A DNA stretch of 64,000 nt, taken from contig CANRLR010000003.1 of assembly GCA_947631505.1 (NCBI GenBank), positions 62,001 to 126,000 of the forward strand. Reading direction: 5' to 3'. The stretch is from an uncultured Lachnospiraceae bacterium. Lineage in GTDB: Bacteria; Bacillota; Clostridia; Lachnospirales; Lachnospiraceae. This document shows positions 39,258 to 46,253 of this stretch, in pieces. Below the pieces are notes generated by a model, which saw only the letters and a list, made by a program, of their open reading frames with translations, was not told the DNA's origin and made no database searches. A program made the translations under genes and the position numbers. The first letter of the stretch is position 1, and each line of letters begins with the position of its first letter.

Positions 39258-40127
39258 TTACGGATAATAAACGGTTATATCGCCGCTTACGGTTTCAAGA
39301 TTGTATTTGGCAGCTCCATTTCCGCATACATAAGTATCATCTTCCTGATTGGCTGCAAACGTATTTTTGAGATTTCCGGATACGGTATCCAGCTCTAATG
39401 TAAATTGAGAGGAATAAGGAATCTGCAGGGACAAATCGCCAGAGACACCATCATAGTTTATTTTCTCTGGTGTCTGGGAGGAGCGGACCGTATAGTTTCC
39501 AGATACGGATTCCATATCTAATTCCTGAAATTCTCCCGAAAGGTCATAATCGCCACTAACGGTTTCTAAATTACATTCCTTTGTAACGTGGATATCGTTC
39601 ATTCTTACATTCCCGGATACGGTATCAAAATCAAAGTTCCTGGAATGTAGACCGTCTACGTTGATATCGCAGCTTGCCGCATCAACAGAAACGTTCTGAA
39701 GATTTTCACAAAGAGAAGACGGGATACGAATGGATAAGTTTTTGTTTTTTGCTTTACTATTGATGAAGAAAAAGCCGCTCCTTCTGTATTGTATAATTAA
39801 AGTACCATTTTCAAAAAAGTAATGCATCTGCTCTCTTTTAGAGAGATTCCCGGAAGATGTTTCTTCCAGTTCAATGGTCTGTCCGTTATAAGGTGTAATA
39901 TTGACTTCGCCATCTACCCAGTTTACTTCAATCTCATTTAATGAATCTGCGATAAGGGAAGCATTTCCCTCCTTATAGCGGTCAGAATTTGTGTATTCTC
40001 CTATTCCGAAGAAAGGAAGGGAGGAGAATCCTCCTTTTTCAATTCCCCATAATAGAATGGAGAAAAATGTAAGAATCAAAAGAGAAGAAATAATAATGCG
40101 AATCACGGCACTTGTTTTATTTTTCAT
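39258..40127 (-). CDS. Membrane-anchored DUF4097-like beta-strand repeat protein
   Basis: Protein of about 289 residues with one N-terminal membrane segment (VIRIIISSLLILTFFSILLWG) and an extracellular right-handed beta-type domain. The repeated motif xxVSGDxxL/V occurs at least seven times (FDTVSGNVRM, LETVSGDYDL, MESVSGNYTV, YDGVSGDLSL, LDTVSGNLKN, LETVSGDITV), typical of DUF4097. ATG at 40127 has GAGG eight bases upstream; a GTG three codons earlier abuts that site. It is the last gene of a PadR-HAAS-DUF4097 operon, a layout common in Firmicutes; the function is unknown, perhaps envelope stress. Confidence 0.87.
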   Translation of the reverse strand: MKNKTSAVIRIIISSLLILTFFSILLWGIEKGGFSSLPFFGIGEYTNSDRYKEGNASLIADSLNEIEVNWVDGEVNITPYNGQTIELEETSSGNLSKREQMHYFFENGTLIIQYRRSGFFFINSKAKNKNLSIRIPSSLCENLQNVSVDAASCDINVDGLHSRNFDFDTVSGNVRMNDIHVTKECNLETVSGDYDLSGEFQELDMESVSGNYTVRSSQTPEKINYDGVSGDLSLQIPYSSQFTLELDTVSGNLKNTFAANQEDDTYVCGNGAAKYNLETVSGDITVYYP

Positions 40128-40137
40128 ATTTGACACC

Positions 40138-40884
40138 TCACTTTCTCAAATCAGTAATTGCTTTTATTAAGGAGTTCGCAGCGGAACCCATGAGGAAAAT
40201 CACCCATGTGATGTACCATGCCCCGGTTGCAAAACTGACGATAAAGTAAAGGGCCGTGGTCAGACTCCAGACCATCGAGTAGATTGATTTGGAAGCAGTT
40301 CGGGAATTATCCTTTTCCTTTTTCCATTCTTTAAATTCTTCTACCATGGAACCATCGGTCTTCGGTGGATGTGGTTTGGTATAACTATTGTAAACGAGAA
40401 GTGCAGTGGCAACAGCAATAAAAACAAACAATCCAGCGGCACCAAGATTTTCGTTTATCGGCAGCATTTCTGTAAGAATCGGCGGAATCACGCAGAGAAT
40501 ATACAGCATGACAGAAATGGAGGTAAGCACTGCTTTCTTCTTTTTCCATTCCGCATATTCCTGCTCATATTTTGTAATCGCAGGAGAGGTGTAATGTGTG
40601 CTGTTTTCGGATTCTTTTTGATTTTGATTGTTATAATCAGCATTGGCAAAATTATTTTTTCCGCTGGTACCGGAACCGCTATATTCATTTAACAGTTCCC
40701 GGATATCTCCGATACTGGCAATGGCAAGGCTGAAAGCCGCTTCCTCGGACTTTCCCTGCTCCAGTAAGTCATGATATTTGTCAATTAAATTCAGTACGAT
40801 TTCTTCTTTTAATTCCTTAGTGGACTCATCTATTGGAATACCTTCAAATAGATAATCCATATGAGTTCGTAATCTTTCTTCCAT
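40138..40884 (-). CDS. HAAS-domain membrane protein (PadR partner)
   Basis: Protein of 248 residues. The N-terminal helical domain (EERLRTHMDYLFEGIPID ... ELKEEIVLNLIDKYHDLLEQG, then EEAAFSLAIASIGDIREL) is the HAAS/permease-prefix type fold that is encoded next to PadR regulators. A polar linker and four membrane segments in two pairs (about 120-165 and 205-240) follow. Two bases separate it from the DUF4097 gene and 14 from padR. It probably senses or carries membrane signals for the operon; no direct evidence. Confidence 0.8.
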   Translation of the reverse strand: MEERLRTHMDYLFEGIPIDESTKELKEEIVLNLIDKYHDLLEQGKSEEAAFSLAIASIGDIRELLNEYSGSGTSGKNNFANADYNNQNQKESENSTHYTSPAITKYEQEYAEWKKKKAVLTSISVMLYILCVIPPILTEMLPINENLGAAGLFVFIAVATALLVYNSYTKPHPPKTDGSMVEEFKEWKKEKDNSRTASKSIYSMVWSLTTALYFIVSFATGAWYITWVIFLMGSAANSLIKAITDLRK

Positions 40885-40898
40885 AATAAATCCCCTTT

Positions 40899-41228
40899 CT
40901 AATCACCTTGAATCAATAAGTCAATTAATTTTTTTGAAGTATCCCATTCTGCTTTGCGGCTCCGGTATGCCTGCCGCCCTTCTGATGTAATTGTGTAGTA
41001 CCGTCGTCTGGCACCGGTATTTTCATTGCCCCAGTAGGACTGTATATATCCGGCCTGTTCAAGCCTGCGAAAAGCAGAATATAAGGTTGCTTCTTTTAAT
41101 TCATATTCTTGTTTGGTCTTTTCCTGAATCGTTTTATTGATCTGATAGCCATAACTGTCTGCGATTGTCAGCTGTGCAAGAATGATTGTTTCCGTGTGTC
41201 CGCGAATTAAATCGGATGCAATCGACAT
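40899..41228 (-). CDS. PadR family transcriptional regulator
   Basis: Winged-helix repressor of 109 residues. Family blocks are LIRGHTETIILAQLTIADSY, GYQINKTI, ELKEATLYSAFRRLEQAGYI (recognition helix) and ARRRYYTITSEGRQAY. The ATG at 41228 is nine bases after AAAGGAGG; the in-frame codon at 41273 lies ahead of that site. First gene of the minus-strand operon, which it is likely to autoregulate. Just upstream begins the invertible repeat element. Confidence 0.93.
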   Translation of the reverse strand: MSIASDLIRGHTETIILAQLTIADSYGYQINKTIQEKTKQEYELKEATLYSAFRRLEQAGYIQSYWGNENTGARRRYYTITSEGRQAYRSRKAEWDTSKKLIDLLIQGD

Positions 41229-41349
41229 AGAAAAGTCCTCCTTTCCGTTCTGTTGTGTATAACATAGACTCAAGTATTATGCATTTCTAAATATATTAAA
41301 ACACAACATACCTCGCCTGTCAAGGTATATTTAACTTTTGTGAATGTCA

Positions 41350-41526
41350 GGCTTTGTAATTGCAAAGTATTTCACGCAGAACAAAACATTCGAACAGCCG
41401 CTCCCGCTTAATCAATTACGTAGCACTAAGGGTGCACCGACTACGCGCACCTCTTAGTGACGCAATTGAAATACTGTTCTCATTGTTTTGTTCTGCGTGA
41501 AATACGGAGAATTAGGAAAGTGCCGA
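41350..41526. mobile_element. MITE-like element with invertible core, copy 1
   Basis: A core of 137 bases (41368-41504) is bounded by perfect 21-base inverted repeats beginning TATTTCACGCAGAACAAAAC. The inside is itself partly palindromic (CAATTACGTAGCACTAAG against CTTAGTGACGCAATTG). The outer flanks (GGCTTTGTAATTGCAAAG on the left, GAATTAGGAAAGTGCCGA on the right) are shared in the same orientation with copy 2, whereas the core is inverted relative to copy 2. There is no coding capacity. Confidence 0.88.
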
Positions 41527-41849
41527 TAAGGAAATAATGATTGACGTTACCTGACTTGTCTGTTACCATAGTAATATATTTACAGCAAATTTCTAATCCG
41601 CTAAAGGATTCTGACAAAATGCTACTCCATGCGATAAACACAGGTGTTATCTGCATGAATAAAGATATTGACCTGTCTTACTTCTTTCCCTATAACATGC
41701 TTGATTTTGTGAAACGTGGCGTGGAATCCAGCTGGAGTTTCAGTGAGCCAGCAATGGAGGCACTGGTACAATTTGTACCCTGCTTTAAAAGTTTTCAGCT
41801 TTCCGCGGACAAAAACGGTAAATATAAAAGACAGAAAGGAACATATTGC

Positions 41850-42872
41850 ATGAATACGGATATCACAAAACAAATGGAAATGGTACTTTACCGCACAGAG
41901 GATGATTCTGTAACAGTAAGTGCTTTAATTAAGGATGAAAGCATCTGGATTACACAAAAAGCAATGGCTGAATTATTTGGTATTGATAAATCCGGCATCA
42001 GCAGACATCTTACAAAAATTTTTGAAACAGGCGAATTAAAAGAAGAAGTGGTTGTTGCAAAAATTGCAACAACCACTCAGCATGGTGCAATGCAGGGTAA
42101 AACACAGATAAATTCTACCAATTATTATAATCTGGATGCAATTATTTCCGTAGGATACAGAGTAAATTCCATTCAGGCGACGTAGTTCCGTATCTGGGCA
42201 ACCGGAGTATTAAAGGAATATATGATTAAAGGTTTTGCAATGGATGATGAACGCTTAAAGCAGGGCAAGACAGCTTTCGGTAAGGACTACTTCCGTGAAT
42301 TGCTGGAACGAGTCCGTTCCATCCGAGCCAGCGAACGCAGAATATGGCAACAGATTACAGATATTTTTGCAGAATGCAGTATTGATTATGATAAAAATTC
42401 TGATATTACTTACCGCTTCTATGTCACTGTACAAAATAAGTTTCATTATGCCATTACAGGAAGGACAGCGGCTGAGATTGTTTATACTCAGGCAGACCAT
42501 ACAAAAGAGAACATGGGCTTGACCACATGGAAGAATGCTCCTGATGGACGAATCTTAAAATCAGACACATCAATTGCCAAAAATTATCTTGACGAAAAGT
42601 AAATCCGTCAACTGGAGCGTGCTGTCACCGGTTATTTCGACTATATTGAAGATTTGATTGAACGAGAGAATGCTTTTACAATGGAAGAATTTTCACAGAG
42701 TATCAATGCATTTCTTGAATTTAGAAGGTACGATATTCTAAAGGATAATGGAAAAATTTCACATAAACAGGCGACTGAGAAAGCACATCAGGAATATGAT
42801 ATTTTCAATAAGACACAGCCGATTGAATCTGATTTTGATAAGGTGGTAAAGGAATTGTCGAAATCAAAGTAG
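41850..42872 (+). pseudogene. RhuM-like protein gene with two in-frame stop codons
   Basis: One continuous frame encodes a protein of the RhuM (virulence protein, Fic/KilA-associated) type: TVSALIKDESIWITQKAMAE, LFGIDKSGISRHLTKIFETG, TNYYNLDAIISVGYRVNS, WATGVLKEYMIKGFAMDDER, then FYVTVQNKFHYAITG and TAAEIVYTQADHTKENMGLT. TAG at 42183-42185 (in SIQAT-stop-FRIWATG, probably once CAG) and TAA at 42600-42602 (in LDEK-stop-IRQLE, probably once GAA) break it into three pieces in the same frame with no frameshift. AAAGGAA lies ten bases before the ATG. An in-frame open stretch upstream (from 41541) has no recognisable family. RhuM proteins are frequent on mobile DNA. Confidence 0.85.
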
Positions 42873-43098
42873 CGTATAGAAATATGACAGCTTGAACGAT
42901 GAAACATTTTCCAGAAATTGTATTGAAAATCTTATTCTTTAATAATTTGTGGATAATATCCATTATACTAATTCCCACAAAATAAGGGAATTAATTTCTC
43001 ACTTGAAATATATTATTAACTATATTAAACTCAATTCAATAAATAACAAATTTGCAGAACTGGATGAAAAGAAAAAATATGGAGTTGATGGAGGAAAT

Positions 43099-43534
43099 AT
43101 GTGCGATTTTTGTAAAATAATTGAGAAAGAATGATGCATTCGTTGTATATGAAACAGATAAGAATATTGCTTTTTTAGATTATGAACCAATAAATGAAGT
43201 GCATGTTTTAATTGTACCTAAAATACATACGGATTCTAATGTAAACATACCAAATGATTTTTTGATGGACATGAACGAAATTATAAGAAAAATGGTCTGC
43301 GTATATCAGAAAGTATATAATGCAGAAGGATATAGCATAATGCAGAATGGAGGAAGCTGCTGTGACTACGGACATTTTCATATGCATGTATTTTCAAGAT
43401 TTGATAATGATGGATTTGGTTGGATTGAATCTGAAAAACCTTCAGATTATTCTGAGAAAATAGCTGAAAAACTTCGCAGGGCATCACTGAGGAAAGATAT
43501 AGATTTGTGGAGGGCTAAAGTTTGGAATATATAG
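43099..43534 (+). pseudogene. HIT family hydrolase gene with an early frameshift
   Basis: The first frame begins MCDFCKIIEKE after a good GGAGGAAAT site and stops at TGA. A second frame continues with NDAFVVYETDKNIAFLDYEP, NEVHVLIVPKIHTD and the histidine-triad motif YGHFHMHVFSR. Together they make one normal HIT protein of about 145 residues, a nucleotide phosphoramide hydrolase or transferase. The shift lies in GAGAAAGAATGATGC near 43130 and would be repaired by two extra A, so a loss of two bases from an A-rich run is likely. The rest of the gene is intact, so the break looks recent. Confidence 0.8.
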
Positions 43535-43935
43535 AAAATTGTTTAACATATCAAGAATATGTTTCCCTAAGGAGTTCCGTTGGTTGGAACAATTTTTCTG
43601 AAGAACAGGTTTGTAAATCGCTGAGCAGGAGTTTATATAATGTAAAGGTTACTGTTGCTAACAGAACGATTGCAATTGACAGAATGCTTGGAGATGGGTT
43701 ATACTATTTGATATTTGATATTGTTGTACAGCCTGAATTTCAAGGAAATGGGATCGGAAATAAGATAATTGATATTCTTTTACAATATGTTGATGATAAT
43801 ACCCCAATCAGCGGAAGGTCAAGTGTGCAATTGATTGCAGAACCGGGAAAGGAAGCATTTTATATGAAAAAGGGATTTAAACTTATTCCGCATGAATCTT
43901 GTGGTTCGGGAATGAGAAAGATAATCCGTAAATAG
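43522..43935 (+). CDS. GNAT family N-acetyltransferase
   Basis: Protein of 137 residues with the acetyl-CoA binding core: YLIFDIVVQPEFQGNGIGNK (motif A, R/Q-x-x-G-x-G/A) near residue 80 and the C-terminal YMKKGFKLIP block. Starts with TTG nine bases after GGAGG, overlapping the end of the HIT remnant. It appears intact. The substrate is unknown. AT-rich like the rest of the island. Confidence 0.85.
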   Translation: MEYIENCLTYQEYVSLRSSVGWNNFSEEQVCKSLSRSLYNVKVTVANRTIAIDRMLGDGLYYLIFDIVVQPEFQGNGIGNKIIDILLQYVDDNTPISGRSSVQLIAEPGKEAFYMKKGFKLIPHESCGSGMRKIIRK

Positions 43936-44004
43936 ATTAAGAAGTTCTCTCTTGTCAAACTGAAAATGAAATATAAGAATAAGAATTTGGAGGATGAATT
44001 TGAA

Positions 44005-44409
44005 ATGAGTAAGTTTAGCGAAAAAGGATATTTTGTTAAAGAAAATGCACCTATATATTTAACATTGGATATGGATAGAACTGCTAAATGGTTTGAAGAT
44101 ACATTAGGTTGGTACAGTAACATTGTAGAGCGTGATGCCGAAGGAAAAGGATGCTATGGGGTGGTTTTTGATATGTTACCAGAAGTAGAATTAGTGCATT
44201 TAGCACCATTTACTGGTATGCAGATGTTTTGTGGAACACCAGAGCCACGCTTAATTTCATTTATGCAGGTAAAGGGAATAGAAAGAATGTATGAATATAT
44301 AACTGCAAACGGTTGGGATAAGATCACCGAGGTTGTTACGCAACCCTGGGGAGGAAAAACTTGCAGTTTGACAACTATTGATGGTTACATCATTAATATT
44401 TTCGAATAA
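44005..44409 (+). CDS. VOC (glyoxalase/bleomycin-resistance fold) protein
   Basis: Protein of about 134 residues with one glyoxalase-type module: PIYLTLDMDRTAKWFEDTLG at the start, CYGVVFDMLPEVELVHLAPF in the middle and the end GGKTCSLTTIDGYIINIFE with the usual terminal Glu. The ATG at 44005 has GGAGG 11 bases upstream; an ATG at 43966 lacks any ribosome site. Such proteins are metal-dependent lyases, isomerases or antibiotic binders; a precise role cannot be given. Confidence 0.8.
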   Translation: MSKFSEKGYFVKENAPIYLTLDMDRTAKWFEDTLGWYSNIVERDAEGKGCYGVVFDMLPEVELVHLAPFTGMQMFCGTPEPRLISFMQVKGIERMYEYITANGWDKITEVVTQPWGGKTCSLTTIDGYIINIFE

Positions 44410-44492
44410 AGAAAATGCCAGTCTGTGGATGAAAACAGTTCCGATTTCCTTTGGGATTTCTCCTATTAGTGAGACAATAATTATTTTTTTAC

Positions 44493-44544
44493 ACAAACCA
44501 GCTTATCCGTGGTACAATGGAACCACAGATAAGCTGGTTGTTTG
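44493..44544 (+). terminator. Long inverted repeat, terminator-like
   Basis: ACAAACCAGCTTATCCGTGGT against ACCACAGATAAGCTGGTTG with a short loop, followed by TTTGTTTT. It lies between the VOC gene and the FnIII remnant. It may be a terminator or a remnant of a mobile repeat. Confidence 0.55.
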
Positions 44545-44562
44545 TTTTGAAAGGAGAATCTT

Positions 44563-44963
44563 ATGAAAACAGATATCCGGTATAAAAGAAACACCATTAG
44601 CAACAAAGAGACCACTATCAACAGGGAAACCATCATCTACAACCGGATTTTCCGGCACAAAAAGGAAAGTTGCACCACAGAAACCTGGCAAAGTTACTGG
44701 TTTGAAGGTAAAAAATAAAAAGAAGAAAAAGATGATTGTTTCATGGAACTGGAAAACAAGCGTAGCCGGATTTCAGATACAATATGCTCAGAACAAAAAA
44801 GAAAAAAAGTAAGATGGTTGGCAAGTGGACTTCTAAAAAAACAATTACTAAACTAAAAAAAGGCAAGACATACTATGTGCGTGTCAGAGCTTATAAGAAA
44901 TTATCAGGGAAAAAGATATATGGAAAATGGAGTAAGATTAAAAAGATAAAAATCAGAAAGTAG
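44563..44963 (+). pseudogene. Remnant of a secreted lysine-rich FnIII-domain protein
   Basis: AAAGGAG and ATG at 44563 start a frame that goes nowhere, but two other frames encode pieces of one protein. A Pro/Ser/Thr linker is followed by PGKVTGLKVKNKKKKKMIVS and WNWKTSVAGFQIQYAQNKK, then, after a shift within an A-run near 44805, SKMVGKWTSKKTITKLKKGK and TYYVRVRAYKKLSGKKIYG, ending KIKIRK at TAG 44961. This is a FnIII module like the tail of the secreted GH43 at 15.3 kb. At least two shifts and a missing upstream part show it is decayed. Confidence 0.72.
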
Positions 44964-44991
44964 TACCGATTAATTGGGAATAAATAGTGGT

Positions 44992-45042
44992 AATAAAGAG
45001 GGCAGTGCGGGTTTGTTGTGTATTGTCCTCTTTATTGGTTTT
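44992..45042 (+). terminator. Terminator after the FnIII remnant
   Basis: AATAAAGAGGGCA and TGTCCTCTTTATT form a stem around a 19-base loop, followed by GGTTTTATG. The remaining stretch from 45043 to 45274 contains only short frames without recognisable products. Confidence 0.65.
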
Positions 45043-45274
45043 ATGATTTTTGTATAGATGTGCCGATTTTACTTTATTTATTTTTGCTATCTTGTCCTAT
45101 AAATATCCTTTAGAAAGAGAACCACAAGTTGAATAAATCTTGCTGTTCCTTGTCATCAGACAATTATGTCCCCTTTCATTTTTGCAACAGCTGATGATAT
45201 CATTTTCTTCAATCTAATCAAAAACAGTCTTCCGAGAAGCATTTGTAAGATAAAAAAACTGAAATGAGAAAGAT

Positions 45275-45452
45275 GGCTTGTAATTGCACAGTATTTCACG
45301 CAGAAACAAAACAATGAGAACAGTAGTTCAATTACGTCACTAAGAGGTGTGCGTGGTTGGCACACCCTTAGTGCTACGTAATTGATTAAGCGAGAGCGGC
45401 TGCTCGAATGTTTTGTTTCTGCGTGAAATAGGGGAAATTAGAAAAGAGCCGA
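45275..45452. mobile_element. MITE-like element with invertible core, copy 2
   Basis: Core 45292-45430 (139 bases) with perfect 22-base terminal inverted repeats (TATTTCACGCAGAAACAAAA ...). The inner sequence (starting CAATGAGAACAGTAGTTCAA) is the reverse complement of the core of copy 1 with few mismatches, while the flanks (GGCTTGTAATTGCACAG and GAAATTAGAAAAGAGCCGA) are in the same direction as in copy 1. The two copies bracket 3.7 kb of accessory DNA. Confidence 0.88.
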
Positions 45453-45551
45453 ATACCTTTCTTGCCCAAAAATCAAAATATTGTATCGGAATCGGCATAT
45501 CTGTGGTATAATGGGCAGTAGTCATACTGCCCGGAAAGGAGATAGAGCGTT

Positions 45552-46253
45552 ATGATTTATATTACAGGGGACACGCATGGGGATTTCCGGCGCATATTTG
45601 ACTTCTGTATGAGATTTGAAACATCCGCAGATGACATTATGATTATACTTGGGGATGCAGGTATCAATTTCAGCGGTGGTTTTAAGGATCAGGCAAAGAA
45701 AGATTACATAGCAGTAATGCCGATAACGCTGTTCTGCATACATGGAAACCATGAACAGAGACCATTTACCATTCCTTCATATGAGGAAACAGAGTGGCAT
45801 GGCGGCAGAGTCTATGTGGAAAAAGAATATCCAAACATACTGTTTGCAAAAGATGGGGAAATCTTTGACCTGAATGGATTAAAGACGGTTACCATCGGAG
45901 GTGCATACAGTATAGATAAAGCGATTCGTCTTGCATACGGATGGGGCTGGTGGGAGGACGAACAACCTTCGGAAGAAATCAAGCAGTATGTAGAGCAGCA
46001 ACTTACGGATAATAACTGGAAGGTAGATGTTGTCCTAAGTCATACCACACCACTAAAGTATGAGCCAGTGGAGGTGTTCCTGTCAGGAATAGACCAGAGC
46101 CGGGTGGACAAGTCCACGGAGGAATGGCTGGATGGGATTGAGGACAGGCTGGAGTATAAGAAATGGTACTGTGGGCATTATCATACAGAAAAGAGGATTG
46201 ATAAGCTGGAGATAATGTTTGAGAACTTTGGCGAGTTTTCAGACCTTCTTTGA
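45552..46253 (+). CDS. Metallophosphoesterase
   Basis: Calcineurin-like phosphoesterase of 233 residues. Metal-binding motifs are all present: GDTHGD at residues 6-11, GDAGIN near 35, GNHEQRP near 66, VLSHTTP near 162 and GHYHTEKR near 207. Related genes are frequent on phages and accessory islands. AAAGGAGATAGAGCGTT precedes the ATG. It is likely a cytoplasmic phosphatase or nuclease; the substrate is unknown. It lies immediately outside the second repeat element. Confidence 0.9.
   Translation: MIYITGDTHGDFRRIFDFCMRFETSADDIMIILGDAGINFSGGFKDQAKKDYIAVMPITLFCIHGNHEQRPFTIPSYEETEWHGGRVYVEKEYPNILFAKDGEIFDLNGLKTVTIGGAYSIDKAIRLAYGWGWWEDEQPSEEIKQYVEQQLTDNNWKVDVVLSHTTPLKYEPVEVFLSGIDQSRVDKSTEEWLDGIEDRLEYKKWYCGHYHTEKRIDKLEIMFENFGEFSDLL

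Follow-up and report, generated by a model that had tools for sequence, protein, structure and literature searches.

The window, a stretch of 64,000 nucleotides from an uncultured Lachnospiraceae bacterium (assembly GCA_947631505.1, contig CANRLR010000003.1, positions 62,001 to 126,000), carries two related repeat elements, copy 1 (41350-41526) and copy 2 (45275-45452), which were delimited by reading the sequence directly and by a repeat search. In this search the outer flanks of the two copies matched in direct orientation, and the interiors (41380-41492 and 45305-45417) were inverted with respect to each other, with 92% identity over 113 nt. The core of each copy is bounded by perfect inverted repeats of 22 nt (Table 1). 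The first-pass annotation of this DNA had described flanks running in the same direction, inverted repeats of 21-22 bases and a core reversed between the copies, all of which was confirmed. Its argument also holds that the core was inverted across its own inverted repeats, as the orientation is not what the simple transposition of an entire unit would give. Folding as single-stranded DNA gave z-scores of -8.58 for copy 1 and -9.73 for copy 2, with none of 200 dinucleotide shuffles as stable in either case. Given these scores and the 19 near-full copies found in the genome, the likeness of the two elements is not due to chance.

Table 1 Features of the two elements, in positions of the window
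Feature	Coordinates	Strand	Remarks
Copy 1, A-type flank	41350..41366	+	GGCTTTGTAATTGCAAA; on the arm-1 side of the core; A-type pattern GTAATTGC..AGTATTTC
Copy 1, left inner inverted repeat	41367..41388	+	22 nt, 100% complementary to 41484..41505
Copy 1, core (arm 1, loop, arm 2)	41389..41483	+	Inverted relative to its own flanks
Copy 1, right inner inverted repeat	41484..41505	+	22 nt, partner of 41367..41388
Copy 1, B-type flank	41506..41526	+	Reverse complement of the insertion sequence (IS)-end sequence (CGGCACTTTCCTAATTCTCC)
ISLre2-type transposase C-terminus, likely remnant	45230..45253	+	FREAFVR-stop, outside the A flank of copy 2; likeness judged by eye
Copy 2, A-type flank	45275..45291	+	Shorter than in other copies
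Copy 2, left inner inverted repeat	45292..45313	+	22 nt, 100% complementary to 45409..45430
Copy 2, core	45314..45408	-	Canonical orientation relative to its own flanks
Copy 2, right inner inverted repeat	45409..45430	+	22 nt, partner of 45292..45313
Copy 2, B-type flank	45431..45452	+	Reverse complement of the IS-end sequence

A search of the genome to which the window belongs (2.74 Mb in 49 contigs) returned 40 rows, covering 21 places through matches to both strands. Nineteen of these places are near-full copies of one subfamily (type 1), and the two partial ones (C1:205272 and C46:3671) were excluded from the set. Oriented by the core, 17 of the 19 copies read flank B, core, flank A, so that arm 1 faces flank B (GTTGGCAC..TAATTTCCCGTATTTC) and arm 2 faces flank A (GTAGGCACATCTGTAATTGCACAGTATTTC). 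The order is A, core, B in the remaining two, L001 (window copy 1) and L008 (C13:62028). Using flank consensuses picked after the copies had been viewed, the both-flank score was +24 to +68 for the canonical copies and -22 and -54 for the two inverted ones; of 2000 random flank pairs, the central 99% scored within ±14, and 14 was taken as the cut-off for classification. In the window, copy 2 has the canonical order, and copy 1 is the inverted, odd one out. The A flank of copy 1 is also more degraded than in most other copies, and a one-base deletion, shared by L002, is present in both of its arms.

Because L001 and L008 have no rare core variant in common and their nearest relatives differ, though by few differences, their sequences offer modest evidence that suggests two separate inversions. 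A second subfamily (type 2) was found in the same genome as a tandem pair (C9:59980 and C9:60363), both members of which have an inverted core, and the repeats bounding the inverted type-1 and type-2 cores have little sequence in common (GTATTTCACGCAGAACAAAACA; CATTTCATGATAAAAGTTTG). This type-2 pair (L012:756-1353, equal to G000:C9:59930-60525) adjoins a type-1 copy. A further 52 copies of the genus were scored, giving 20 canonical, 2 inverted and 30 unclassifiable copies, the last being without readable flanks; four matches (G013:C166, G002:C21, G013:C40 and G013:C290) were left out of the scoring. This brings the totals to 37 canonical and 4 inverted copies, with 30 of 71 unclassifiable, so that 4 of the 41 copies classifiable at the cut-off of 14 are inverted. 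Two copies of G016 (C121 and C52) were considered as further inversions and not counted, their scores of -2 and -12 being inside the random range. Core inversion is real, with probably about three occurrences in this genome.

The core itself belongs to a hairpin family with a recognisable architecture, in which arm 1 has a GCGCTC.CGCT bulge and a 2-nt bulge, the loop lies near AAAATAC and arm 2 has no large bulge. For 29 aligned cores RNAalifold gave 26 pairs, 17 of them with double changes. Across the 23-pair main stem 95.4% of the 667 cells pair, compared with 28.6-47.4% when the partner is slid (29 cores), and 115 cells have changed on both sides versus 8 on one side. The observed pairing or covariation score was reached by 0 of 500 shuffles. 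The few G-U steps among the pairs suggest Watson-Crick copying at the DNA level. In some hairpins of G013 and G014 (L055, L056, L064 and L068) an additional ~50 bp (GTTCTACGTTCCACTTCGGTCCGCGCA...) are present around the bulge of arm 1.

A covariation model built from 26 cores with the type-1 subfamily excluded (R2) recovered both window copies, at 41393-41476 on the plus strand (54.0 bits) and at 45402-45321 on the minus strand (55.7 bits), and matched nowhere else in the window. The first core model, which includes three type-1 rows, gave 26 matches in the own genome and 35 in G016, and matched 17 of 39 same-genus genomes (E <= 1e-5) and, under stricter filters, 22 of 397 family genomes (E <= 1e-6), the own genome being counted each time. 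No close type-1 core copy was seen outside the own genome, which was the only one of the 397 family genomes to carry it; a type-1 search of the genus matched 8 of 39 genomes, those other than the own genome through the ends or at ~71%. The exact core pattern was found in no stretch of the genome and viral contig collections, where near copies of the own genome may be excluded. A wider core pattern had no hit in viral contigs, the plasmids gave no match, and one unannotated phage-labelled record matched the B end only. Rfam had no match in 41000-46000 or at the hairpins of eight other loci; eight Rfam matches fall at L047:1162-1365, away from the hairpin of that locus. In the literature, of which open-licence PubMed Central was covered, nothing among the matches listed was recognised as this hairpin, and an earlier description may exist. 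A covarying mobile hairpin family with a conserved core and with stems that are matched within copies and differ between them is apparently undescribed. In G147, three tandem hairpins with a spacing of 164 bp occur at L359 (G147:C59:125141-125554), and in the same genome another repeat, whose ends resemble TTCGTCAATTTGCACA, encloses some of the hairpins.

Outside the core, copies in other genomes often have self-complementary stems of their own, matched within a copy and differing from one copy to the next. In a sample of 23 of the 35 G016 matches and nine G244 copies, the mean identity of the outer arms was 0.80 (G016) and 0.85 (G244) within a copy and 0.53 and 0.58 between copies, with between-copy maxima of 0.89 and 0.79, respectively. 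The own arm was the best partner in 20 of 23 G016 copies and in all nine G244 copies. Seven orthologous pairs could be compared between G244 and G434, and here the cores were 95.2% identical (578/607), the inner stems 76% (133/174), the outer stems 69% (358/516) and the flanks 91.6% (3866/4221); these flanks are largely coding, and the comparison does not prove that the stems change faster than neutral DNA. Captured phage sequence as a source of the stems was set aside after two single stems were searched against phages with a best E of ~7, a weak test as these were two of many.

The hairpin family is mobile because a clean insertion of 183 bp, hairpin included, lies between two conserved genes of G244 and is absent from the contiguous site in G434, a single locus on which this conclusion is based. 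The genes around it are murB- and rapZ-like, judged by eye, and the insertion has no target duplication. Several further relatives show short gaps at the murB/rapZ-like site, and G435 a longer one. The empty G434 site contains neither arm, and on this one locus neither an inverted target duplication nor a palindrome already present at the site was accepted as the source of the stem.

The flanks point to an insertion sequence. At least 120 stretches of the genome collection contain the B end (GTTTGTGTCAAGTNNNCGTTGGCA); those among the matches listed are labelled Lachnospiraceae, Roseburia, Acetatifactor or Lacrimispora, or carry the broader names Clostridia, Eubacteriales, Eubacterium, Clostridium and Bacillota; we take Roseburia, Acetatifactor and Lacrimispora to be genera of the Lachnospiraceae. 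Of 12 loci examined, about 6 have a transposase-like frame, recognised by eye, beyond the B end on the C-terminal side. The sole such frame tested, that of L124, matched UPF0236 (PF06782) in Pfam, presumably the ISLre2-family transposase. On the other side several copies, window copy 2 among them, continue from flank A into what appear to be decayed codons of a transposase C-terminus. The FREAFVR-stop ending seen at copy 2 is also that of a frame in L201, which matches a UPF0236 protein query. In L200, from a same-genus genome, a transposase C-terminus, A flank, hairpin and B flank stand in a row, the B tip being degraded. A search of the own genome for the parent transposase matched only two short fragments, both beside hairpin copies. 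From its sequence the hairpin unit looks like a multiplied 3' subterminal piece of an ISLre2-type element whose transposase has been lost here. No target-site duplication was seen by eye at the 19 copies or at the single filled/empty pair of the wider family. An IS30 transposase was also considered as the mover, as the B end adjoins a frame in L069 that we call IS30-like from motif likeness and for which Pfam gave only helix-turn-helix domains; it was rejected, about 6 of 12 B-end loci having UPF0236-like neighbours instead. A near-palindromic 29-mer (GTTTGTGTCAAGTNNNCGTTGGCACAAAC) stands alone at L065, L069, L102 and L103, as if two IS-end tips remained.

We infer that the core was probably inverted by template switching during replication of the hairpin, and that the inversion has no regulatory role. 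The element would be a non-coding mobile hairpin of about 150-225 bp, consisting of flank B, inverted repeat, bulged core hairpin, inverted repeat and flank A. While such a hairpin is replicated the polymerase may switch templates between the arms; a switch would copy one arm onto the other and keep the arms matched while their sequence drifts, and a switch in each arm would turn the spacer, here the core, around. Copy 1 would be such a case. One report (PMC8604942) attributes both the homogenisation of arms and the inversion of spacers to template switching between inverted repeats, and another (PMC8794818) attributes multi-base compensatory changes in hairpins to it. Both of its signatures, arm homogenisation and spacer inversion, are present in this family, and template switching would account for them. 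The cases cited from these reports and ours have in common matched arms, concerted arm changes and inversion of the whole spacer; the cited spacers are of a few bases and lie in yeast genes, whereas here a structured core of 95 bp in a mobile bacterial element is involved, in probably three cases in one genome.

Several observations weigh against this reading. The yeast spacer inversions cited from PMC8604942 change 2 to 5 bp, as opposed to a core of 95 bp. In the covariation analysis, pair types beyond the first were not commoner than in shuffles (54 of 500 as high). Stem change between G244 and G434 is uneven, being marked in only three of the seven pairs, and the outer arms match poorly (0.53-0.62) in two of them. 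Core orientation was kept in 8 of 8 orthologous comparisons in this other genus of the family, the eighth being with G445. Comparison of core with flank orientation in related genomes, which the first-pass annotation had proposed, placed all four clear inversions in the own genome, and none of the 17 classifiable copies in other same-genus genomes is inverted. This clustering could mean a strain-specific cause, on counts that are too small for a decision. The inversion was seen between copies of one assembled genome and not in action at a single locus, and recombination between the arms would leave a like trace.

Homologous recombination, of the RecA type or by single-strand annealing, could flip or replace the core between the 22-bp arms or between dispersed copies. 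Perfect arms and many dispersed copies are available to it, and the end product expected is the same. We consider it unlikely. Arms of 22 bp are short for recombination by RecA; as far as the flanks are readable, all 19 copies combine an A with a B flank, and the A-A or B-B ends that exchange between copies would give were not seen; and recombination alone leaves unexplained why the arms of a stem match when stems vary from copy to copy. Nor is it probable that a copy inverted long ago transposed and so passed the inverted state on, an explanation to which we give very little weight. It would need fewer events, and the inverted type-2 tandem pair is probably the product of one, yet the core variants and relatives of L001 and L008, few as their differences are, do not group these two copies, and the ends of L001 are among the most degraded. 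That the assembler joined a repeat in the wrong orientation seems the most improbable of all, despite 19 copies in an assembly of 49 contigs: the final k-mers in usual assemblies are longer than the 22-nt arms, the combination of core variants in L001 is unique, with at least 3 differences from each other copy, and the type-2 pair is inverted too.

The first-pass annotation had further proposed that the core might be a small invertible switch for accessory genes. In invertons and invertible promoters a segment is inverted between inverted repeats, and a site-specific recombinase might turn the core in this way as a phase switch. The setting has its likeness to such systems, with a unit bounded by perfect inverted repeats and lying between genes, present in both orientations relative to its flanks (between copies only, in 2 of 19 type-1 copies), and with all clear inversions in one genome. 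The evidence otherwise makes a switch improbable. Of 22 sigma-70-like matches, none has its start within 41350-41526 or 45275-45452, in a search that did not cover other promoter types. No recombinase family, linked or nearby, was matched in Pfam among 20 window proteins, three of them without any match, in a scan that did not extend to other window frames or the rest of the genome. A single common recombinase site is unlikely because the repeats bounding the inverted type-1 and type-2 cores differ. With orientation conserved in all eight orthologous comparisons and only 4 of 41 copies inverted, a dedicated switch fits poorly and is not supported.

The element was also compared with known dispersed repeats. 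Like miniature inverted-repeat transposable elements (MITEs) of the ISLre2 family, it has many copies and no coding capacity, with an IS end (GTTTGTGTCAAGT...CGTTGGCA) at flank B and likely remnants of the transposase C-terminus beside flank A in several copies. It differs from an ISLre2 MITE in that no target-site duplication was seen by eye and in that other genera have the core hairpin too, there with different stems and lacking these ends. Repetitive extragenic palindromic (REP) elements with REP-associated tyrosine transposases (RAYTs) are palindromes tagged with GTAG and CGTC (PMC3733652). Our hairpins are likewise dispersed palindromes with conserved unpaired bases, and in some cores GTAG comes just ahead of the inner stem and the complementary arm contains CGTC; the motif preceding the inner stem is GTAG or a variant such as GCAG/GCAA. 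They are unlike REP elements, which are short palindromes of 20-40 bp with a GTAG tag at one end, in having a core of 84 positions plus outer stems that differ between copies. A Y1 transposase (PF01797) was found in 3 of the 17 hairpin-bearing genomes of the genus (G002, G014 and G025) and in 7 of the 22 others, and was absent from the own genome (G000) and G016. A RAYT was rejected as the mover, given Y1 in only those 3 of 17 carriers and a hairpin far longer than REP.

In the neighbourhood of copy 1, a RhuM-like gene (PF13310; 41541-42872) follows the element and is split over three frames, its first piece scoring just under the Pfam cut-off; from its sequence this gene looks broken. On the minus strand beside copy 1 (39258-41273) a PadR-type regulator, a protein without Pfam match and a DUF4097 protein stand in a row.

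On the reading by template switching, these dispersed hairpins are a natural record of inverted-repeat evolution in bacteria, in which cases of arm copying and of spacer inversion can be tallied at many loci in each genome. They also counsel caution, in that a reversed segment between inverted repeats is not automatically a regulatory switch. The family raises the question of which enzyme moves a hairpin whose stem varies by site. We tentatively suggest, as a possibility of rather low probability, that recognition is of the conserved bulged core, either as RNA or as single-stranded DNA in its folded state, that the self-complementary outer stem is renewed at each insertion or evolves through rapid arm copying, and that inverted cores are by-products of this arm copying. 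If true, this would make the hairpins an undescribed class of mobile element in which each locus has its own double-stranded sequence.

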